A program made the translations under genes and the position numbers. The notes under the pieces are model-generated. The model was not told where the DNA came from. It saw nothing but the letters and a program-made list of their open reading frames with translations, and ran no database searches. From a virus: 50,652 nt of DNA. Shown here in pieces: positions 2,818-30,044 of the stretch (positions within the stretch are counted from its first letter, which is position 1; the number at the start of each line of letters is the position of its first letter). The stretch spans positions 1 through 50,652 of the IMG/VR virus record IMGVR_UViG_3300048838_000345. One strand, 5' to 3'.

Positions 2818-3168
2818 ATGGATTGGCGAGTTAGAGATAAACTGATTGAAGCGATGTTCAAAAATGAACCTCTATACATAAGAGATACTGGCGTCAAAGT
2901 ATCTATAGACTATTTTGGAACAGACGAACACCCTTCATTTACTCGAGCATCAGATGAAAAAAGAATGCCTAGAGTAAAAATAGTGTTTGACTCAGCTCCG
3001 AATATGAAAGCATTAAAAATGTGCAAAAAATACCATATTAAAAAAAATAGCCATTCTAAAATAATGGAATTAGATGCGGAGATAGACTTAGACAAACTTA
3101 GTCTGTACCCTTTTGAGTCGGACGGAGCCAAAGTTTTATATGGCAAAGAAGCAAAAAAAATCAAGTAA
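2818..3168 (+). CDS. Hypothetical protein ending in a KVLYGK tail
   Basis: A 116-residue protein, not recognised. It is rich in Lys, Asp and Glu, has no membrane segment and looks like a mixed alpha/beta domain. Its C-terminus reads GAKVLYGKEAKKIK. The codons for Leu-Tyr-Gly (TTA TAT GGC) contain the ATG that starts the next gene at 3140, so the two reading frames overlap by 29 bases. The same arrangement recurs many times at 17905-21230, which suggests this gene belongs to the same class of small overlapping genes. The gene itself starts one base after the CYTH stop. Confidence 0.7.
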   Translation: MDWRVRDKLIEAMFKNEPLYIRDTGVKVSIDYFGTDEHPSFTRASDEKRMPRVKIVFDSAPNMKALKMCKKYHIKKNSHSKIMELDAEIDLDKLSLYPFESDGAKVLYGKEAKKIK

Positions 3169-7253: not shown

Positions 7254-8216
7254 ATGAAGAAGATTTTAGTATTGATGAGCACACTACTTCTAGGTTTAAG
7301 TAGCTTTGCAGCTACTCCACCGAAAACGACAGTAGGAGTAAAAAATGGAATTGTCCTAACTAAGGATAATACAATTGTTATGGATGATTACTTCTCAGGA
7401 GAGAAGGTCGCACAAGTAACTCAAAAAGCAAAAGATTTAGATGCCAAATTACAGTCTAATGAACCTTTATATCTGGTTCTTGATTCTGGCGGAGGGTCTA
7501 CTGAAGCTGGTATCGAGTTAATTGAAAACCTTAACAATCTCAATCGACCAGTAAAAACTGTAACGCTGTTCGCCGCATCTATGGGATTCCAAACTGTAGA
7601 AGGTTTACGAGGTGAACGTCTAATTACTGAAAACGGCACTTTAATGAGCCACAAAGCGCGAGGTGGATTTTATGGAGAGTTTCCAGGACAACTCGATTCT
7701 AGATATAATCACTATCTCCGCAGAGTTCAACGATTAGACGCCCAAGTCGTCAAACGTACAAACGGAAAACATACAGCAAAAAGCTACGCAGCATTGATTG
7801 AAAACGAACACTGGTGCGATGGTGCTGACTGTATTGCTCAAGGTTTTGCAGACCGAGTAGTTAAGCCTTCTTGTGACCAAAGCTTAAAAGGTACACATAA
7901 CGCACTATACGACCGTTTCATCTACATGGGCCACGTAGTAGAGATTGTTGACGTTATGTCAAACTGTCCACTAATTACAGAAGCTCTCAGTTGGAATGTA
8001 TATATTGATGGAGAACCCTTGTTTGCTTCTGACACAGACTCCTTAGTGAATTCAACAAAAGTAAGTACTGACATCAATCAATCCGGCTATTCTCGATTTA
8101 ATCGTACAGTCTTAGATTCTGTAGGTCTTGAAGCTGCGGAAAATATCAAAAAATTGGTGACTAAGAAACTTGATGCTCGTGAAGGTTCTGCTGACCGTAA
8201 CGTAAAGAAGTACTAA
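7254..8216 (+). CDS. Secreted ClpP-like serine protease
   Basis: A 320-residue protein with a classical signal peptide (MKKILVLMSTLLLGLSSFA, cleavage after about residue 19) followed by a ClpP/crotonase-fold domain. LDSGGGSTEAG matches the ClpP oxyanion region. FAASMG carries the nucleophile Ser109. LMSHKARGG carries His133. The WCDGADCIAQGFADRV segment matches the ClpP C-terminal signature, but the third catalytic position appears as Glu185 rather than Asp by hand alignment. Roughly 110 residues follow with no recognised domain. Export and the lack of a visible ATPase partner argue for an ATP-independent, SppA-like role in the periplasm. It sits between a small membrane protein and two more envelope-directed proteins. 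Confidence 0.75.
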   Translation: MKKILVLMSTLLLGLSSFAATPPKTTVGVKNGIVLTKDNTIVMDDYFSGEKVAQVTQKAKDLDAKLQSNEPLYLVLDSGGGSTEAGIELIENLNNLNRPVKTVTLFAASMGFQTVEGLRGERLITENGTLMSHKARGGFYGEFPGQLDSRYNHYLRRVQRLDAQVVKRTNGKHTAKSYAALIENEHWCDGADCIAQGFADRVVKPSCDQSLKGTHNALYDRFIYMGHVVEIVDVMSNCPLITEALSWNVYIDGEPLFASDTDSLVNSTKVSTDINQSGYSRFNRTVLDSVGLEAAENIKKLVTKKLDAREGSADRNVKKY

Positions 8217-15347: not shown

Positions 15348-15585
15348 AGCTAATAAAAAACTAGTAAAACTTTTATCGGACTTAGTAGACAGCAACCCTG
15401 ACCAACGGTTTAGTCAAATACTTCGCAATTACGGTTTTATTAAAGAAGATAGACCAGCTAGACCTGAAATGTGTATATCTATTCAAAATGAATTTTACGT
15501 TGAGTCAGACAAGATTCTTGAAAGGGTAGAAGAACGTGTTAAAGATATTAAAGGACAATCATCCGATACTACGTCAAGTAGCTAG
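15334..15585 (+). CDS. Small hypothetical protein
   Basis: An 83-residue protein with NPDQRFSQILRNYGF and a later EFYVESDKILERV. This pairing is seen in a common phage/bacterial family of unknown function (pattern as I recall it). It overlaps the gene before by 14 bases and the deformylase gene after it by 50 bases, so the end of this protein and the start of the enzyme share sequence. Confidence 0.65.
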   Translation: MSRLEANKKLVKLLSDLVDSNPDQRFSQILRNYGFIKEDRPARPEMCISIQNEFYVESDKILERVEERVKDIKGQSSDTTSSS

Positions 15586-15991
15586 TCCTGTAGAAGAAAT
15601 TACAGATGAGCTTAAACAGCTAGCCGTAAAAATGCTAGCTACTATGCGTTTAGAAGGTGGAATAGGATTAGCCGCCCCTCAAGTAGGTGAATCAATTAGC
15701 CTTATAGTATTTGATTGCGTCAACCAAACGTACAGTGCTAACGACTCCGGCATAATGTTTAATCCAAAAATTTTAGGGTCAAGCAAAGAAGTGGCAACCG
15801 ATATAGAAGGTTGTTTAAGTTTTCCAGGCGAAACCTGCAAAGTTACTAGACCTTTAAGAATTAAAGTAGAATACCTTGACTTGGCTAACCGTACTGTGGT
15901 AAGGTCTTTTAGTGGTCTAGGCGCTAGAGTCATTCTCCATGAAATGGACCATCTTTTAGGCATTACTATGAATGACAGGGAGATTGAATAA
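15536..15991 (+). CDS. def: Peptide deformylase
   Basis: Removes the formyl group from the N-terminal Met of new proteins. All three catalytic motifs are present in 151 residues: GIGLAAPQVG (43-51), EGCLS (91-95, with metal ligand Cys93) and HEMDHLLG (135-142, His135 and His139 ligands, Glu136 base). The start is GTG 15536, giving the usual KILKDNHPILR N-terminus, and lies 50 bases inside the preceding gene. Compact phage deformylases are known; they may speed maturation of phage proteins or favour selected host proteins. It overlaps the following microprotein start (TAATG). Confidence 0.93.
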   Translation: MLKILKDNHPILRQVASPVEEITDELKQLAVKMLATMRLEGGIGLAAPQVGESISLIVFDCVNQTYSANDSGIMFNPKILGSSKEVATDIEGCLSFPGETCKVTRPLRIKVEYLDLANRTVVRSFSGLGARVILHEMDHLLGITMNDREIE

Positions 15992-16343: not shown

Positions 16344-16800
16344 GATTACTGGTGATGCTTGGCAAACTTGGCAAAAACTCCAGGAACAGGAAGAGTGTTT
16401 TCTGTGCATCACAACTAACGGTACATTAAGAAAAGACGGCGCATGTGTAATGGGCGCAGGAATAGCCAAGGAAGCAGCTAGGCAGTTTGACTGGGTAGCT
16501 AAAGACTTAGGACGTAATATTCTTATGTACGGGAATGTTATGCACTATCTAGGTCATAACTTAGTTTCTTTTCCAGTTAAACATAATTGGTGGGAAACAG
16601 CGGATATTGAATTAATTAAACGTTCTTGTAATGAGCTTATCGCCTTTTTAGATTCTATGGCTATTGAACGTGATGTAGAAGAGTGTACTGCTATCTTAGT
16701 TAGGCCAGGTTGTGGGAATGGTAAACTAGATTGGGAAACAGAAGTAAAACCTGTTATATCCTCATTACTGGACGATAGAGTTTATATAATCACTTTTTAG
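16336..16800 (+). CDS. Macro-domain protein (ADP-ribose binding or hydrolysing)
   Basis: A 154-residue protein. CITTNGTLRKDGACVMGAGIAKEA (about 24-46, with the G-A-G-I-A loop) and LVRPGCGNGKLDWE (about 127-140, the second ligand loop) are typical of macro domains close to the TARG1/Appr-1''-P phosphatase types. Such domains bind or remove ADP-ribose. In a phage this could reverse ADP-ribosylation made by host defences or process NAD-derived products; that is inference. The start is GTG 16336, overlapping the third microprotein. Length is normal for a single macro domain. Confidence 0.8.
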   Translation: MIEITGDAWQTWQKLQEQEECFLCITTNGTLRKDGACVMGAGIAKEAARQFDWVAKDLGRNILMYGNVMHYLGHNLVSFPVKHNWWETADIELIKRSCNELIAFLDSMAIERDVEECTAILVRPGCGNGKLDWETEVKPVISSLLDDRVYIITF

Positions 16801-17456: not shown

Positions 17457-17918
17457 ATGACCGTAATCATTGATGAATTTCAAATTCTAATAGACTTAGA
17501 AAGTTTAAAAATAGTACAACAATATAAATGGAAGAGTAAAAAAAATCCTGTCGGACAAACGTATTTCTCATATTCTAATTTGTATTTGCATAGATTGATT
17601 ATGAATTGTCCTAAAGGAATGGTAGTTGACCATATTAACGGCGATACTTTAGATAATAGAAAATCTAATCTTAGAATATGCAGTAAACTAGAAAATCAAT
17701 ATAATCAAAAGAAACATAAAGGAAACAGGCACTCTAAGTATAAGGGTGTGACGTTTAGAAAAGAACTAAAAACTAAACCTTGGGAAGCTTTTATCTATAA
17801 TAATTACAAAAGCACAAGAATAGGTTACTTTAAAACAGAGCGAGAGGCGGCTGAAGCTTACAATAAAGCTGCACTAGAAGTGTACGGGAGCTTTGCTAAA
17901 CTGAATGAATTTGCCTGA
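17457..17918 (+). CDS. HNH homing endonuclease with AP2 DNA-binding domain
   Basis: A 153-residue mobile-type endonuclease. The HNH part reads LYLHRLIMNCPKG then VVDHINGDTLDNRKSNLR (His, Asn, His/Asn positions of the beta-beta-alpha metal fold). The second half, SKYKGVTFRKE ... WEAFI ... RIGYFKTEREAAEAYNKAA, is an AP2/ERF domain. This pairing is standard for phage free-standing homing endonucleases. It would cut a related phage lacking the gene and spread by repair. It starts immediately after the preceding stop and overlaps the next gene by 14 bases. Confidence 0.92.
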   Translation: MTVIIDEFQILIDLESLKIVQQYKWKSKKNPVGQTYFSYSNLYLHRLIMNCPKGMVVDHINGDTLDNRKSNLRICSKLENQYNQKKHKGNRHSKYKGVTFRKELKTKPWEAFIYNNYKSTRIGYFKTEREAAEAYNKAALEVYGSFAKLNEFA

Positions 17919-18228
17919 AAGTCACGTCGTATTATATTGGTACTGTGCTGGGGTATTTGCCTTAGTGGTCTATTACCTTTACCTTAATTTTTATAAAAAA
18001 GAAGAAATCATTATTAAAGTTGAAGACTTAACTATGCTATTTCTTATGGCTATAGCAGGTTTTATGTTATGGCTTATTCCAGTTGTCCACTTATGTATTG
18101 ACATTGTTAAGAACTATGGTAATATTAAGTCAGTAGTTCTTTGGAGTAATAAGAGAGCCAAGAACAAAGAAATCTTATTTGGAGACAATGATGACGATGA
18201 TAAAACCAAAACGTACCCCAAATTTTAG
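17905..18228 (+). CDS. Two-helix membrane protein ending in KEILFG
   Basis: A 107-residue protein with membrane helices at about residues 8-27 and 43-66 and an acidic tail. Near the C-terminus, NKEILFGDN is a variant of the recurring L-Y-G tail. Its TTA TTT GGA codons contain a TTG in the position where other array genes have ATG. It opens the chain of twelve overlapping genes that runs to 21230. Function unknown. Confidence 0.65.
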   Translation: MNLPESHVVLYWYCAGVFALVVYYLYLNFYKKEEIIIKVEDLTMLFLMAIAGFMLWLIPVVHLCIDIVKNYGNIKSVVLWSNKRAKNKEILFGDNDDDDKTKTYPKF

Positions 18229-18736
18229 TAAAGACCTAAAGATTGGAGCTAATGGTGAACTTCAGTTTCAAAAAAGATTTCAAGCAGCCCTAATTAAACA
18301 AGACGGCAAACTAGCTGACTTCATTGTGTCTAACAAGGTTGGTTCTGGTCTAGAACTAAAAACTGACACTTATGATTCTCCCAATTTCTTCTTTGAACGC
18401 TATTCTGATTTGTGGAAACAGACTGATGGTGGGGCTTGGCAAGCTGTCAAGCATTCTAAGTACTTTGCGTACTATTTCATTACTAAAGATGTGTATTATC
18501 TCTTCAACTTAGAAACACTTATTCCAGCTTTGGAGAAGTATATTGAAGAAAAGAAACCTAGAAAAGTAGAAGTAAAAAATCGTAGTTATTCTACTGGCGG
18601 CTACGTTATACCTATTAACGACGTTAAACATCTTGCAATTTCTCATACAGCATTAAATGCTTTAAGTAACATTGAACCTGAAGAAGGCTTTATTCCTAAT
18701 GGAGTTGAACTTGCAACGGTACCAAGTAAAACCTAA
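18179..18736 (+). CDS. Predicted PD-(D/E)xK nuclease-fold protein
   Basis: A 185-residue protein with GANGELQFQKRF (a helix with the first acidic residue), ADFIVSNK, then GLELKTDTY (the ExK element), FFFERYSD and GGAWQAVKHSKYFAYYF. This order fits phage restriction-endonuclease-like folds. The start is ambiguous: TTG 18179 sits exactly where the array's junction motif places starts and gives the +1 phase, while ATG 18188 or 18191 follow a GGAG. Substrate unknown; processing of host or invading DNA is plausible. It overlaps the previous gene by 50 bases and the next by 38. Confidence 0.6.
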   Translation: METMMTMIKPKRTPNFSKDLKIGANGELQFQKRFQAALIKQDGKLADFIVSNKVGSGLELKTDTYDSPNFFFERYSDLWKQTDGGAWQAVKHSKYFAYYFITKDVYYLFNLETLIPALEKYIEEKKPRKVEVKNRSYSTGGYVIPINDVKHLAISHTALNALSNIEPEEGFIPNGVELATVPSKT

Positions 18737-18992
18737 TCAAACATATATATTATATAAGTTACACGAAGACGGCACTAGAGAACTTAAAGGCTTTGGTGAT
18801 ATTTGGATGGACACTATTCAAGTTGGCTACGGAGTAATCTTTCAGAATTGGTATACTACTCCAGTAGATATGATTGAAAAGACTGGTAAAGGTATTATCT
18901 TTGAAACTAGAAATAGTACGTATCTATTAGAAGAATGTAATTCTTTGCCAGGATTCGTCAATGAACCTATTAAGAGACCCCTTAAAGATTAA
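18699..18992 (+). CDS. Array protein, hypothetical (97 aa)
   Basis: A 97-residue beta-rich protein (YQVKPNQTYILYKL, VGYGVIFQNWYTTP, KGIIFETRNSTYLL). ATG 18699 lies within Asn-Gly codons of the upstream nuclease gene, in the +1 frame, and is preferred over TTG 18672. It ends without an L-Y-G tail. The fold looks like a small beta barrel; function unknown. Confidence 0.6.
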   Translation: MELNLQRYQVKPNQTYILYKLHEDGTRELKGFGDIWMDTIQVGYGVIFQNWYTTPVDMIEKTGKGIIFETRNSTYLLEECNSLPGFVNEPIKRPLKD

Positions 18993-19236
18993 ACTAGGTT
19001 CTTTTATCGAAGAACGAAATAGGTTTAATAAATCTAATTTTACAATATATAAAGTAGTTTATTTAGACCGTACTACTGATTTTATGAGACTTGAAGTCGT
19101 AGTTAGCTCTCGTTCAGCTAAAAGTGGAACTTATAGCGCGATGATTTCTGCGCACTGTATGAGTGGTCCTAGTGCTTGGCTAAGCTATTTACTGGACTGT
19201 TCTGATACTTCTGTGATACTGTATTCTAATGATTAA
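18961..19236 (+). CDS. Array protein, hypothetical (91 aa, ends VILYSND)
   Basis: A 91-residue beta-rich protein (FTIYKVVYLDRTTDFMRLEVVV) that overlaps its upstream neighbour by 32 bases. Its C-terminus, SVILYSND, keeps Leu-Tyr but has Ser for Gly. The next gene begins with ATG at 19229 inside the last codons. Function unknown. Confidence 0.6.
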   Translation: MNLLRDPLKIKLGSFIEERNRFNKSNFTIYKVVYLDRTTDFMRLEVVVSSRSAKSGTYSAMISAHCMSGPSAWLSYLLDCSDTSVILYSND

Positions 19237-19462
19237 ATACCCCGTTAATACCGAACTAATTGACAAATACGGTGAAGTTGTGGTAGTACTTGATATTGAT
19301 ATGGATTATCATTCTAGAAAGAAAGATTATGCTATCGAAGTCATCTACAGCGTAAAACACGATATTGGGTCTAGATTTTGGATGGCTAGCTCTGTAGTAG
19401 AACGTTGGTATAGAGAATTGAATCCACAAGAAAAGGTGTTATATGGACGAAACAGAGACTGA
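19229..19462 (+). CDS. Array protein, hypothetical (77 aa, ends EKVLYGRNRD)
   Basis: A 77-residue protein with a beta-strand-like N-terminal half (GEVVVVLDIDMDY, YAIEVIYSVK), suggestive of an SH3-like barrel, and an aromatic helix (SSVVERWYREL). It ends QEKVLYGRNRD; the bases TTATATGG of L-Y-G contain the next start at 19443. GAAAAGG just upstream can act as its ribosome-binding site. Function unknown. Confidence 0.65.
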   Translation: MIKYPVNTELIDKYGEVVVVLDIDMDYHSRKKDYAIEVIYSVKHDIGSRFWMASSVVERWYRELNPQEKVLYGRNRD

Positions 19463-19724
19463 GTACGTGGCTGGTTGGGCAGAGGTGTTCTCTGAGATAG
19501 GGTACGCATACGAGCGACAGTATCCACCAAAACTCTACATAAACACTAAAGGCATAAAAGTGGCTAATTTTTATAAGTTGTCTATTAGTGAAGATGGTGA
19601 AATGGAATACAAAGGCAACGTTACTAGATTTGACACTTCTTGTTGGTGGAAAGTAGAGTTGTTGGTTAAACTATTTGAGGGCGGCGGCGCTCTAGAGACG
19701 TTGTATGGACAAGCAAGTTCGTAA
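19443..19724 (+). CDS. Array protein, hypothetical (93 aa, ends ETLYGQASS)
   Basis: A 93-residue protein with an acidic N-terminus (MDETETEYVAGW) and a core of alternating strands (FYKLSISEDGEMEYKG), then a Trp-rich helix (SCWWKVELLVKLF). It ends ALETLYGQASS, whose TTGTATGG bases hold the ATG of the next gene (19705). The overlap is 20 bases. Function unknown. Confidence 0.65.
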   Translation: MDETETEYVAGWAEVFSEIGYAYERQYPPKLYINTKGIKVANFYKLSISEDGEMEYKGNVTRFDTSCWWKVELLVKLFEGGGALETLYGQASS

Positions 19725-20058
19725 GTTTATCATTACTTATACTCACTATTACGACTGTCCGGTGTGTGATGGGCACGGGTCTCACGAAACAGAATCTATT
19801 CACCAAGAACAAGTCAATGAGTTAGAAGGTATAAAGGCTTACGTTAAAGCTGGCATTAATACGTCTAAATTCTTAATGTTGTATGAAGTGTTGCCTTATG
19901 GCGTTATTAGTCCTGTAAGTTGTTTTAACGAACATTATGGTTTTCATAGAATTGGTAGAGTGGATTTTGACTTTAACGGAGACGTTCAAGTGCTACGTTG
20001 CGTAGACAACTTTAATTACGAGTGGATGACTTCTACAGAAAAAGTATTATATGAATAA
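19705..20058 (+). CDS. Array protein with CxxC knuckle (117 aa, ends EKVLYE)
   Basis: The largest of the late array proteins (117 residues). Near the N-terminus CPVCDGHGSHE resembles half of a zinc knuckle. The C-terminal half alternates like beta strands (HRIGRVDFDFNGDVQVLRC). It ends STEKVLYE; TTATATGA gives both the tail and the next start (20051), so here the stop codon TAA follows Glu at once. Function unknown. Confidence 0.65.
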   Translation: MDKQVRKFIITYTHYYDCPVCDGHGSHETESIHQEQVNELEGIKAYVKAGINTSKFLMLYEVLPYGVISPVSCFNEHYGFHRIGRVDFDFNGDVQVLRCVDNFNYEWMTSTEKVLYE

Positions 20059-20311
20059 TTTTTACGACTTTATGTGTCTAAATGAATACGATAACAAATG
20101 GCTACACTATAAAATAGGTACAGTGGACGCTTATTTGAAGTTTGATTACGCCACTTTTTACCATGGTACAATGGATTTTTATGTCGCAATAAAAAATACG
20201 TCTACGTATAAGACTCGACTTCCTGTGGCAGGATTTGTAGAATATTTAAAAGAAGGTAAGATAACTATACTTTCTAATCAATCTGTAATTGAAACTTTAT
20301 ATGCAAAATAA
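20051..20311 (+). CDS. Array protein, hypothetical (86 aa, ends ETLYAK)
   Basis: An 86-residue aromatic-rich protein (NNFYDFMCLNEYDNKWLHYK) with probable beta strands (FDYATFYHGTMDFYVAI). The tail is VIETLYAK, with Ala for Gly because the next ATG (20301) is followed by C rather than G. It overlaps the next gene by 11 bases in the +1 frame. Function unknown. Confidence 0.65.
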   Translation: MNNFYDFMCLNEYDNKWLHYKIGTVDAYLKFDYATFYHGTMDFYVAIKNTSTYKTRLPVAGFVEYLKEGKITILSNQSVIETLYAK

Positions 20312-20531
20312 AACTAAATATTCAGTAGAAGATGTTTCCGTAGCTTGGCAAAAGTTTCAAGAACCCTGGTATTTAATAGAAAACCTTATAACTAAAGAAA
20401 AGATTATTCTTAAAGGGCTCAAAGGTTTAATAGAGTATAGATTATGGACTGAAAGGTACGGCGCAGCTAACTGTACGTGCCTTAGAGTTGATGCTAAAAT
20501 AGGGGACACTCTTTATGGTACGCCGACGTAG
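20301..20531 (+). CDS. Array protein, hypothetical (76 aa, ends DTLYGTPT)
   Basis: A 76-residue protein. ATG 20301, inside the upstream Leu-Tyr-Ala codons, is chosen over TTG 20289. It includes WYLIENLITKEKIILKG (strand-turn-strand) and a CTCLRV segment. It ends IGDTLYGTPT. AGGGGA lies eight bases before the next ATG (20515), a good ribosome-binding site placed within the coding tail. Function unknown. Confidence 0.65.
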   Translation: MQNKTKYSVEDVSVAWQKFQEPWYLIENLITKEKIILKGLKGLIEYRLWTERYGAANCTCLRVDAKIGDTLYGTPT

Positions 20532-20778
20532 AACTTTACATCAAGTGTTCTGTGATTCTGGGGTTATGCCTAAAGACCATCAATTTATATGGTATTCTGG
20601 AAACGTTTATAAAAAAGTAAATTCTAGGTATCACTCAAATGAGAATATTACTTACCATTCTATTGTTGATAAATACAATCTTGTTGAGTTAAAGCTAGAT
20701 TATGATATTCTATCAGAATGGGGTAGAGAAGTATTTCCAGAAGAACTTACAACTTTGGAAGTACTTTATGGAATTTAA
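20515..20778 (+). CDS. Array protein, hypothetical (87 aa, ends EVLYGI)
   Basis: An 87-residue protein with a very basic start (MVRRRRTLHQ) and an aromatic middle (FIWYSGNVYKKV). The tail TTLEVLYGI ends one residue after Gly. GGAAG upstream of the embedded ATG at 20768 can serve the next gene. The basic N-terminus could touch nucleic acid. Function unknown. Confidence 0.65.
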   Translation: MVRRRRTLHQVFCDSGVMPKDHQFIWYSGNVYKKVNSRYHSNENITYHSIVDKYNLVELKLDYDILSEWGREVFPEELTTLEVLYGI

Positions 20779-20989
20779 AGTCGGAGATATGGTGACTTAC
20801 TCTACGTTTAATACTACTCAAATGTATAGTAGAGATGCTATATTTACAGTATTCTACAGTAATGGTAGTATTTTGACTTTGAGGCACCACAAGACTTTGA
20901 AGCCTGTCAGGATGGCAGTAGTACCTAAACAAATTAGATTGGTAACAGATGCGGAAAAAATCTTATTTGGGGAAAGCTCCCAAACTTAA
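20768..20989 (+). CDS. Array protein, SH3/KOW-like (73 aa, ends EKILFGESSQT)
   Basis: A 73-residue protein starting FKVGDMVTYST, a typical opening of small SH3/KOW-like barrels, followed by strands AIFTVFYSNGSILTLRH and MAVVPKQIRLV. ATG 20768 lies in the LYG codons of the gene before; the frame is open upstream, but that part is overlap. It ends DAEKILFGESSQT, with TTATTTGG at the junction, so the next start there would be TTG. Function unknown. Confidence 0.65.
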   Translation: MEFKVGDMVTYSTFNTTQMYSRDAIFTVFYSNGSILTLRHHKTLKPVRMAVVPKQIRLVTDAEKILFGESSQT

Positions 20990-21230
20990 AGTTAAAGATA
21001 AAGTCTTTGATTTAGATTCCAAGAAAATTGGAGTTATATTACGAATTGACAATCTATGTTCAAAATATCATAGTAATGATTATGAAAATCCAGGCTATTT
21101 AGAATACTACGTAAAATGGCATGATAGCTGGACTAGGCATGACGTACACGAAATAGATGATATGACTCACCCTAGAGTAGTGCCATATACTAAGACTATT
21201 CAAATTCTATACGGTAAAAATAAAAAATAG
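20967..21230 (+). CDS. Last array protein, SH3-like (87 aa, ends IQILYGKNKK)
   Basis: An 87-residue protein, or 93 if ATG 20949 is used. TTG 20967 is preferred because it sits exactly at the array's junction position. The sequence LKVKDKVFDLDSKKIGVILRID ... LEYYVKWHDSWT ... VHEID reads like an SH3-like barrel. The tail IQILYGKNKK is kept although its Tyr codon is TAC, which removes the embedded ATG, and no gene follows. The AAA AAT AAA AAA codons of KNKK form the U-tract of the opposing terminator. Confidence 0.65.
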   Translation: MGKAPKLKVKDKVFDLDSKKIGVILRIDNLCSKYHSNDYENPGYLEYYVKWHDSWTRHDVHEIDDMTHPRVVPYTKTIQILYGKNKK

Positions 21231-23457: not shown

Positions 23458-24522
23458 TTATAATTCTGCGTCTGCTGTCCATTGATACCTGTAAGCCACT
23501 GTCGTATCTACACCTAAAGCCGTATCAACAGAAAATGCAGAAGTAGTACTTTCTACTGCACTGGCTGCAACAGGGCTATTAGCATCCAAATTTCTTATAC
23601 TGCCTGCGGCTCCGCTAGCAGTGTCCCTAAGTGTTATTATAGGCGCAGTTCTTTTTTCTACTTTAAAATAAGCTCCAGGAGTAACACTTGTTCCGTTATA
23701 TCTGGAATAATGTGCTGCGCCAGCAGTAGTAATAGCACCAGGCACAACGTCTAAGCTATAACTTTTCTCGTAATACCTTTGACAAAGAGCTAACTCTCCG
23801 CCAAATGTCTTACCTGCTGTTCTAAAAGGTAAAGCTTCTGCGCCCTCGTTTATCATGACTCCGGTTATTCTAAAATTTGTGGAGCCAGTGTTAGTGCCGT
23901 TAACTTGGTTAGCAGTAGCAATAAACTCTCCAGTTTGCCAGGCTCCAGCAGTTGTATGATAAGTAGAACCTGAAGCAATCGTCCACACAACTCGCAAACC
24001 TAGACTATTAGTATAATTCCAAGTTCCTGTAGAAGGTGAAGCTAGTACGGTAATTGTTTTCTTTTCCCAAACTTCAGAAGAAGTAATAGTGTATTCTGCA
24101 ACATAAGAACGGTCTACACCCGCATTCAAAAAAGCTACGCAGTAAATCCCAGGAGTTGTAGCTTTTACCCAAAAAGATAAAGTAAACTTTTTTTGCGCTA
24201 AATTAGCAAAGTTATACCCTTCAATTGATTGTCTAATAGTACAAATATCACCTGCTGCGAGTGAAGTGTCGGGAGTTGTTAGATTATATCTTAAACTATT
24301 TTGAAACAAGTATCCTGATTCAGCTAGGGTTGGAGCGTCGGTGTCTTGCGTAACTGTATGTACCATTGCACCAACTTTACTATACTGATATCTGTCTAAA
24401 TGGTAGGCTGCATTTGCTATTGCTGTAAAAGATGTTCCTCTTTGAGCCAATCTCATATCGCTGTTCAAAAGGTAATTACGACCGTAATCTTCTCTTAAAT
24501 CTAATTCTGGTGATTTAGCCAT
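23458..24522 (-). CDS. Tail fiber / receptor-binding paralog A
   Basis: A 354-residue protein. The N-terminal NYLLNSDMRLAQRGTSF and later YHLDRYQY fit a common fiber domain (N-x-L-x-N-x-D/F-M/x-x-x-x-QRG ... DRW). A beta-sandwich segment (FTLSFWVKATTPGIYCV) and CQRYYEKSY follow, and the end reads YQWTADAEL. It is paralogous to the genes at 24532 and 29040. Such proteins usually bind surface sugars. The stop and ribosome-binding region after DAEL are nearly repeated between copies. Confidence 0.75.
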   Translation of the reverse strand: MAKSPELDLREDYGRNYLLNSDMRLAQRGTSFTAIANAAYHLDRYQYSKVGAMVHTVTQDTDAPTLAESGYLFQNSLRYNLTTPDTSLAAGDICTIRQSIEGYNFANLAQKKFTLSFWVKATTPGIYCVAFLNAGVDRSYVAEYTITSSEVWEKKTITVLASPSTGTWNYTNSLGLRVVWTIASGSTYHTTAGAWQTGEFIATANQVNGTNTGSTNFRITGVMINEGAEALPFRTAGKTFGGELALCQRYYEKSYSLDVVPGAITTAGAAHYSRYNGTSVTPGAYFKVEKRTAPIITLRDTASGAAGSIRNLDANSPVAASAVESTTSAFSVDTALGVDTTVAYRYQWTADAEL

Positions 24523-24531
24523 AATGTCTCC

Positions 24532-25623
24532 TTATAGTTCTGCATCTACAGCCCAATTCGTATATAATGAACCGTTGTTGGCTGGTGTTCCGCTTGGAGT
24601 TAACCAATAATTTTTTGTAGAGACTCCGCCAGAGGCTATACCGTGATTAGTCGAATTTTGTGTGTCCCATATAGGATTGACAGTATTTCCATCATTTGGA
24701 TTATATAAAGTGATTGTCGGAATTACTCGTTTTTCTACTTTGAAATACAAAGTAGTAAAAGGTCTATTAGTTGCGCCAACGGCATGCCAAGTATGTGAGC
24801 CTGCATAAGTAGGAAAAGCTCCAGCAGAAGCTCCTAAATCATAACTCTTTTCGTAGTATCTTTGGCAAGCTATTAACTCTTCTTCAAACGTTTTACCAAA
24901 CGTCGTAAAAGCAGGTTGGTCGTGTGTACCTTCAACAATCATGACTCCGGTTATTCTGAAATCTGTAGCTCCAGTATTTACTCCGTTTACTTGATTTGAA
25001 GTAGAAAAAAATCCACCAGTTTGCCAAGTATTAGGGGTCGTTTGAAAATCAGTTCCAGAAGCCAATGTCCAGGCCACTCGCAAACCTATACCAGTACTAT
25101 AATTCCAAGTACCATCTAGTGGGGCTGCGTCTACATTAATAGTTTTGTGTTCCCAAGTATTCGTGGCATTTATTGTGTATTCTGATACATAAGAACGATT
25201 GAAACCTGAATTAGTGAGACTCACGCAATAAGTTCCAGCAGTTGTGGCCTTCACCCAAAAAGACAAAGTGAAAGGTTTTTGAGAAATTTTAGCCCAATTA
25301 TAACCTTCTATAAATTGTCTTATATTTACTACATCTCCTGCGGCAATTGAAGTGTCAGGGGTTGTCAGGTTCAGCCTCATACTATTTTGAAAAAGGTAAG
25401 CTTCTCCAGTAGCACTTTCTACTTGTGCAGGTGTTGGAACATCTGTATCTTGTGTGATAGTGTGTACTGCTGTAGATATTTTATTATAATTCCATCTGTC
25501 CAAAGTGTACGTGTTGTTAGCAACCGCAACAGCCGCAGCAGTAACGTACCTTTGAGAGATTCTCATGTCGCCGTTTATAATATAATTTTTTTCTAATTTA
25601 TCTAATCTTGGAGTTAAACTCAT
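24532..25623 (-). CDS. Tail fiber / receptor-binding paralog B
   Basis: A 363-residue paralog of the 23458 product: NYIINGDMRISQR start, YTLDRWNY, FTLSFWVKATTAGTYCV, CQRYYEKSY, and the end NWAVDAEL. The two copies agree closely through the middle (beta-sandwich) and differ mainly in the last 100 residues before the shared tail, as expected of swapped receptor-binding tips. AAGGAG precedes the ATG; the gap to paralog A is 9 bases. Confidence 0.75.
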   Translation of the reverse strand: MSLTPRLDKLEKNYIINGDMRISQRYVTAAAVAVANNTYTLDRWNYNKISTAVHTITQDTDVPTPAQVESATGEAYLFQNSMRLNLTTPDTSIAAGDVVNIRQFIEGYNWAKISQKPFTLSFWVKATTAGTYCVSLTNSGFNRSYVSEYTINATNTWEHKTINVDAAPLDGTWNYSTGIGLRVAWTLASGTDFQTTPNTWQTGGFFSTSNQVNGVNTGATDFRITGVMIVEGTHDQPAFTTFGKTFEEELIACQRYYEKSYDLGASAGAFPTYAGSHTWHAVGATNRPFTTLYFKVEKRVIPTITLYNPNDGNTVNPIWDTQNSTNHGIASGGVSTKNYWLTPSGTPANNGSLYTNWAVDAEL

Positions 25624-29039: not shown

Positions 29040-30044
29040 TTATATTTCTGCGTCTGCTGTAAATTGAAAATATAAAGCTCTATCCACTGTTCCAGCATTA
29101 CCGCCTTCAAATCCAGTTTCCGAGGACCTTGATGTGGACGCATTTTCACCATTAGCAGAAAATCGGGAAACTTTTCCCGAAGCTCCTAACTCATCGTACA
29201 TAACAATACTAGGAGTGGCTCTTTTTCTAACGTTGTAGACTAAACCAATAGATTGCAACAACATTCCTGCACCTAAAGAAAATCCTTTTGAACCTTGGTT
29301 ACTAGCGGTTCCTGGAGTTACGTCAATATTGTAACTTTTCTCGTAATATCTCTGGCAGAGCTGAAGTTCTTCTGCAAAAGTTTGACCTCTAGTTTCAAAA
29401 GTAGTTGCTACTGGGCCTTCTTCTAACATCACGTCTTCAAGAACGTATAAATCTGCTGCTCCGGCTGTTCCAACTGTATCAAATCTAAAATTCACAGCAA
29501 CTCCTACTATATTAGAAGTAGGCAAAGTTACCGTTGCCGAAAATCTTTGAGGTTGTGTTGTTAAAACGTTATTTTGTGAGATAGCAACTACTGGGGCTGA
29601 CCAACCTGTGAGGTAGTTAGTATCAGGATTTGATAAAGTGTACAATATTTGACAAGCTAAAATTGACCCAGCGGCGGAATAGTTTGCGCCTTTATAAGCA
29701 GTAAAACTTAACGTTACTTGTTTGCCAATCAATACTTGAGAATCTCTTCTTTCTAATGACTGTTGAAATTGGAATCCAGTTACAGCCGTATTTCCCACAT
29801 TTCTTTGCACGAGCAAAGCATTTCTGCCATGACCTAGTGCATATCCTGGGTTAGAATGTTGAGTTCTCGCTAAGGTGTAATTTGATACAGCTCCTGGAAA
29901 AAATCCCCATCTATCAGTCGTATAAGAAAAAGTGTTAGCTGTGTTTGTATAAGAAGTACCTCTTTGAAATAAACCAAAGGCACCATTATAAAGAAGATTT
30001 TTAGCTTTTTTATTTGCTGTTATTACATTTACGGGACTTCCCAT
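29040..30044 (-). CDS. Tail fiber / receptor-binding paralog C
   Basis: A 334-residue third copy of the fiber family: NLLYNGAFGLFQRGTSY start, YTTDRWGFF, QLCQRYYEKSYNID, and the end YFQFTADAEI. The middle differs more than between copies A and B. It follows directly after the 1549-residue protein gene and precedes the GIY-YIG gene. Separation from its paralogs by the adhesin and endonuclease genes suggests local duplication and shuffling. Confidence 0.75.
   Translation of the reverse strand: MGSPVNVITANKKAKNLLYNGAFGLFQRGTSYTNTANTFSYTTDRWGFFPGAVSNYTLARTQHSNPGYALGHGRNALLVQRNVGNTAVTGFQFQQSLERRDSQVLIGKQVTLSFTAYKGANYSAAGSILACQILYTLSNPDTNYLTGWSAPVVAISQNNVLTTQPQRFSATVTLPTSNIVGVAVNFRFDTVGTAGAADLYVLEDVMLEEGPVATTFETRGQTFAEELQLCQRYYEKSYNIDVTPGTASNQGSKGFSLGAGMLLQSIGLVYNVRKRATPSIVMYDELGASGKVSRFSANGENASTSRSSETGFEGGNAGTVDRALYFQFTADAEI

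Follow-up and report, generated by a model that had tools for sequence, protein, structure and literature searches.

A chain of overlapping genes with a common C-terminal tail

The stretch analysed here, IMG/VR virus record IMGVR_UViG_3300048838_000345 (50,652 nucleotides; hereafter the window), contains at positions 17905-21230 a chain of twelve open reading frames (ORFs), most of whose products end in a similar short peptide, the tail with which this work is concerned. The ORF coordinates bear out what the first-pass annotation had described, namely that all the junctions overlap (by 8-38 nt) and that each downstream gene starts in the +1 frame (Table 1). An L-Y-G tail had also been reported at most junctions, with the next start lying within its codons. 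The tail was found on 10 of the 12 products, in the form L-[YF]; it is absent from genes 2 and 3, which end in ..NGVELATVPSKT and ..NEPIKRPLKD, respectively. The placement of the starts held in part: six ATGs lie in a Tyr codon of the tail (TAT-G) and one TTG in a Phe codon (TTT-G), whereas four starts lie in AAT-G (Asn) or GAT-G, outside the aromatic codon. Gene 4 retains L-Y despite its neighbour's ATG being located two codons past the Tyr codon, and the tail of gene 12 (QILYGKNKK, with TAC GGT) is present without any downstream gene.

Table 1. Genes of the chain and an isolated carrier of the tail in the window
Feature	Coordinates	Strand	Codon of the preceding gene holding the start	C-terminus and remarks
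Gene 1	17905..18228	+		Two-transmembrane (two-TM) protein by eye; tail ..NKEILFG-DNDDDDKTKTYPKF; next start downstream of the tail
Gene 2	18191..18736	+	GAT-G	181 aa, nuclease-like by eye; no tail; no Pfam match
Gene 3	18699..18992	+	AAT-G	No tail
Gene 4	18961..19236	+	AAT-G	Tail VILYSND
Gene 5	19229..19462	+	AAT-G	Tail EKVLYGRNRD; next ATG in TAT-G
Gene 6	19443..19724	+	TAT-G	Tail LETLYGQASS; predicted domain, with the tail modelled at low confidence
Gene 7	19705..20058	+	TAT-G	Tail EKVLYE, directly before the stop codon
Gene 8	20051..20311	+	TAT-G	Tail IETLYAK
Gene 9	20301..20531	+	TAT-G	Tail GDTLYGTPT
Gene 10	20515..20778	+	TAT-G	Tail LEVLYGI
Gene 11	20768..20989	+	TAT-G	FKVGDMV, SH3-like by eye; tail EKILFGESSQT
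Gene 12	20967..21230 (TTG; or ATG at 20949)	+	TTT-G (TTG)	LKVKDKV, SH3-like by eye; tail IQILYGKNKK
Isolated carrier	2818..3168	+		Tail ..AKVLYGKEAKKIK; next ATG at 3137 in TAT-G

A homolog of the tail-less gene 2 lies directly upstream of a DNA polymerase gene in the distant relative L003, a gene order that suggests a replication-linked role for this protein.

Recurrence of the tail in the whole phage record

The whole record was IMG/VR contig 3300048837_000378 (104,793 bp; hereafter G001), which is 100% identical to the window over 20.6 kb and 98.6% identical over 144 nt at one end. The base-by-base comparison covered only these 20.6 kb and 144 nt, and the other 54 kb of the record were added to the analysis. 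The tail was found throughout G001, including three clusters beyond the chain of the window. About 40 curated genes carry it (carriers) among ~157 called genes, counts that are approximate because the gene caller was simple; their products range from 73 to 204 aa, and many of them lack an overlap. None of the genes for DNA polymerase, ribonucleotide reductase (RNR), helicase, terminase, major capsid protein (MCP) or portal carries such a tail. In an unbiased scan of C-terminal 4-mers (reduced alphabet, last 14 residues, expectation taken from internal segments of the same proteins), [VIM]-L-[YF]-G was the top-ranked pattern, with 16 genes against 0.12 expected. The pattern [ILVMT]L[YF]G was observed 20 times, whereas 2000 shuffles of the same C-termini gave a mean of 0.16 and a maximum of 3. 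This recurrence is not due to chance. The consensus reads [ST/G]-[EKP]-[AL]-x-[KE]-[VIA]-[LI]-[YF]-[GEK], followed by 0-11 residues.

One protein of the structural operon of this record ends in ..MLYKGNKK. A small protein encoded between terminase and portal (L007:17091-17390 region; piece B 16511-16783) and its orthologs end in REMLYKGKKK in G001-like phages; this protein was considered as the ancestral form of the tail and rejected, since the ending is not universal.

Conservation of the tail with and without gene overlap

Orthologous junctions were located in seven phages through the gene bodies and not through the motif. The gene containing EITDK ends in LYG, LYGK or LYE in G014, G009, L142, G002 and G019, with the next ATG inside TAT-G, and in LFGR or LFG in G001 and L140, where the next start comes after the stop codon. 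At the following junction of G019, LYE is spelled with TAC and the start lies 7 nt further downstream. Across the orthologs, the gene that closes the cluster ends in LFKDNK, LFKNS, LFGD or LYG (with TAC), with no embedded start. No ATG is possible at the aromatic codon in 57 of the 121 carriers of eight records. The tail thus outlasts loss or displacement of the overlap, which the first-pass annotation had proposed to test. Codon choice was assessed in the 40 curated G001 carriers: the Leu, Val, Ile, Phe and Gly codons of the tail follow genome usage (p 0.09-0.87), and Tyr alone is skewed, towards TAT (p 0.005).

Of the five members in the family of gene 6, four have the tail and one lacks it. 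In G001 the tail has the embedded ATG, in G003 (QKSLYHE) the ATG lies one codon later, and the members of G002 (EKVLFVR) and G009 (EKILFKEIKKG) have no overlap. The untailed member, from the tail-lacking record G006, ends in ..FYEFLESIKDPV (..KFYEFLESIKDPV) directly before the stop codon; its body is complete and terminates at the point where the others continue into the tail. In a structural model of gene 6 (3 sequences, pLDDT 83), consisting of a helix, five strands and a helix, the tail has a pLDDT of 44-58 and lies outside the folded domain. A fold search with this model gave no match in PDB or in the viral library.

Folds of the carriers

The folds of the carriers differ and include a two-TM protein (by eye), an L7/L12-like protein, SH3-like barrels and the alpha/beta model of gene 6. 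The similarity to the C-terminal domain of ribosomal protein L7/L12 was weak (E 0.0026 among 40 proteins; the carrier, by eye, is L007:3576-3998). The carriers of the related record G011 were modelled as SH3-like barrels with a Foldseek probability of 0.99 to L21e and Mind-bomb repeats, at E values of only 0.04-0.1, and the sequence matches of this family to KOW and SH3_15 were weak. Searches of the 40 carriers against Pfam and PHROGs gave nothing beyond weak matches. When the bodies were compared without the tail only small groups were joined, and most carriers stayed unlinked. A single SH3-like barrel is not shared by all carriers, a result of moderate weight given that the predictions come from single models.

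Distribution among related phages

Relatives were gathered through the MCP, which yielded 53 related loci. The tail recurs in the whole records G002, G003, G004, G009, G012, G014 and G019; [VIM]L[YF]G was counted 7 times in G002 (0.18 expected) and 4 times in G009 (0.03 expected). G011, whose MCP is 70% identical, has its own variant, ELGxA[IL]YE, on ~25 small genes (AvYe, 9 against 0.05; A[IL]Y, 23 against 1.06 in shuffled sequences). The tail is absent from the more distant records G005-G008, G010 and G013 (MCP 58-65%), where C-termini are at most lysine-rich. Since it is present in the relatives of G001, variant in G011 and absent from the distant records, the tail marks one clade, with a lineage-specific spelling. 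Relatives that keep the overlap and lack the tail, which the first-pass annotation had named as evidence against its proposal, were not found within the clade; G006 lacks both.

A search for exact DNA patterns of the tail across IMG/VR found recurrent tails in the G011 contig only, and 40 other IMG/VR stretches matching KVLYGK followed by a stop codon, used as control, show no recurrence. Comparison with isolated phages by DNA similarity gave only HNH endonuclease matches; no match was obtained for the carriers and chain genes in INPHARED or for the MCP in GTDB genomes. Lysine-rich C-termini are in excess in the tail-lacking G005, G006, G010 and G013 (pattern k.kk in G005, 26 against 4.1 expected).

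The tail as a probable recognition tag and alternative explanations

Selection acts on the peptide, because L-[YF] is kept whether the start is embedded, shifted or absent, the codons other than Tyr are at background, the gene 6 family varies in its overlaps and the folds differ. We consider it likely that the tail serves, at the protein level, as a C-terminal recognition tag. The tag probably lets one common partner recognise all the carriers, as judged from relatives that keep it even where the gene overlaps have been lost, and it would act as a docking peptide for that partner. Of the two readings put forward in the first-pass annotation, that of a shared C-terminal peptide is the one supported here, with the partner presumed. 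From its consensus the tail looks like a short capped amphipathic helix (positions -7 S/T/G, -5 A/L, -2 V/I/A, -1 L/I and 0 Y/F).

Several points weigh against a recognition tag. Most carriers were chosen by the motif, although the ortholog comparisons came through body sequence; the untailed homolog is a single case; the clade is represented by metagenomic contigs alone; and the tail of carriers with an SH3-like fold may be a helix belonging to that fold, to judge from the G011 model (pLDDT ~65). No partner was found by phyletic profile among the coiled-coil gene L006:1315-1560 and the ClpP genes, neither being specific enough, and the naming of any particular partner would be doubtful. The product of L006:1315-1560 (minus strand), an untailed coiled-coil protein encoded within a carrier cluster, is conserved in G001-G004 and G011 and was not found in the tail-lacking records; it is a possible candidate.

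The other reading of the first-pass annotation was translation coupling at the nucleotide level, in which an internal ribosome-binding stretch and an ATG would be conserved at the gene end and the peptide similarity would be a by-product. The starts embedded in aromatic codons of the chain and the skew to TAT are in keeping with it, as are the tails of G011, which read GGAGAGGCTATTTATGAG, a good Shine-Dalgarno sequence plus ATG. However, a coupling module should be conserved only with an embedded start and should constrain codon choice along the conserved stretch. Instead, there are tails whose aromatic codon is TAC, TTT or TTC and tails whose next start is displaced or missing, most of the tail codons are at background, and the four starts in AAT-G or GAT-G lie away from the aromatic codon. 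The orthologs with L-[YF] and no embedded start already refute coupling as the sole cause, and as the origin of the tail we regard it as very unlikely; a secondary use of TAT-G for coupling is plausible. The embedded starts themselves are an opportunistic consequence of TAT-G. Another candidate is a signal in the nascent chain that acts within the exit tunnel of the ribosome as translation terminates, for instance to promote re-initiation. It would suit a tail near the stop codon and often at an overlap, but the distance to the stop varies from 0 to 11 codons and genes with nothing downstream retain the tail, which makes this explanation highly improbable.

Two further explanations accept selection on the protein. 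The carriers might be one ancient, hugely diverged family of SH3-like barrel paralogs with the tail as its best-conserved structural element; the G011 carriers do form an SH3-like family, and many G001 carriers start with KxGDxV (by eye). Against this stand the two-TM, L7/L12-like and alpha/beta carriers, the complete body of the untailed homolog and the many carriers left unlinked without the tail, so that we judge a common barrel ancestry unlikely. Alternatively, the tail might be a C-terminal degron that keeps early proteins short-lived through host Lon or ClpXP or through a phage ClpP, which the phage encodes (PF00574, 3e-29). It resembles the Lon C-degrons x-L/I-L/I/V-H and the Smg terminus ..GLYH (PMC11986505). 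Yet a degron would have defined last residues (His in the Lon group) and no acidic end, whereas here the last residue is not fixed, 0-11 residues follow the aromatic one, and acidic ends, disfavoured by Lon and ClpXP (PMC11986505), dominate in G011; ClpP-like genes also occur in the tail-lacking G005 and G008. A degron is, in our estimation, quite unlikely. Lon or ClpX degrons, arrest peptides and pure coupling all fit the tail poorly.

One phage lineage carries the tail on many small accessory proteins of differing fold, and if the tail is a recognition tag, one common partner would bind it. The mechanism with most precedent would sort a variable repertoire of proteins for host takeover or anti-defence; their destination could be the virion, as it is for the T4 internal proteins, and a hub in the cell is an about equally open alternative. 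Since Tyr is encoded mainly by TAT and the codon after it usually begins with G, an ATG in the +1 frame comes with the tag, preceded by purine-rich Glu, Lys and Gly codons; tightly packed genes may have re-used these ATGs as starts, giving rise to the overlapping chain. A more speculative and rather doubtful extension is a library of ~40 small adaptors whose distinct binding domains serve one effector (capsid, protease or another hub); in this view tag and effector would have co-evolved within each lineage (VLYG versus ELGxAIYE).

Comparison with known systems

The nearest precedent is the capsid targeting sequence (CTS) of T-even phages, a short terminal peptide that is all that highly diverse small defence proteins share and that directs these proteins to the core of the prohead (PMC3012670). 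As in CTS cargo, a short peptide is common here to otherwise unrelated small proteins. The T4 CTS is N-terminal, is cut off by the prohead protease and occurs on few proteins. The tag, in contrast, is C-terminal in all carriers and is borne by ~40 proteins, most of them encoded outside the structural operon. The tag is not a CTS, the latter being N-terminal, though it may work like one. In encapsulins, a short peptide recruits cargo to an HK97-fold shell. This cargo-loading peptide is often C-terminal. Encapsulins, however, take one or few cargoes into a cellular compartment, whereas the phage tag is carried by ~40 proteins and any binding of it by the capsid would be hypothetical.

The start-associated sequences (SAS) and extended SAS (ESAS) of cluster K mycobacteriophages are likewise repeated elements, located where many small phage genes begin. 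The SAS is a DNA-level, intergenic element, whereas the tag is conserved at the amino-acid level and lies inside the upstream gene. Termination-reinitiation pairs (ATGA, TGATG; PMC6728339) likewise have the next start inside the end of the previous gene; the tag differs in giving +1 overlaps via TAT-G or AAT-G and in persisting as a peptide without overlap. The Lon C-terminal degrons of SulA and Smg also place a short hydrophobic or aromatic C-terminus on unrelated proteins, but they have an invariant terminal His and disfavour acidic ends (PMC11986505), unlike the tag, whose ends are variable and often acidic. No description of such a tag was found in open-access full text on tags, coupling and targeting.

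Other genes of the phage

The phage encodes two proteins of the ClpP family. That of L005:883-1482 (minus strand; PF00574, 3e-29) is of the cytosolic type and adjoins the DNA polymerase gene, and that at 7254-8216 of the window has a signal-peptide-like N-terminus and looks exported (2e-14). A peptide deformylase is encoded at 15536-15991 of the window (PF01327, 7e-46), and an SPFH/Band 7 membrane protein at L006:4974-6170 (minus strand; PF01145, 2e-12), present in G001 only among the compared records. Three virion-side proteins of the window (23458-24522, 24532-25623 and 29040-30044) have a common C-terminal ..[FW][TAV][AV]DAE[LI]; the first two contain a DNA duplication that is 69% identical (23725-24312 and 24808-25398).

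Implications

If the tail is indeed a recognition tag, the last ten residues would suffice to assign the products of a quarter of the genes of this phage to a single pathway, despite their unknown function, and the tag would offer a direct handle for fishing out the common partner. It would also exemplify the origin of gene overlaps from a protein motif, the TAT-G codons giving a free start codon.

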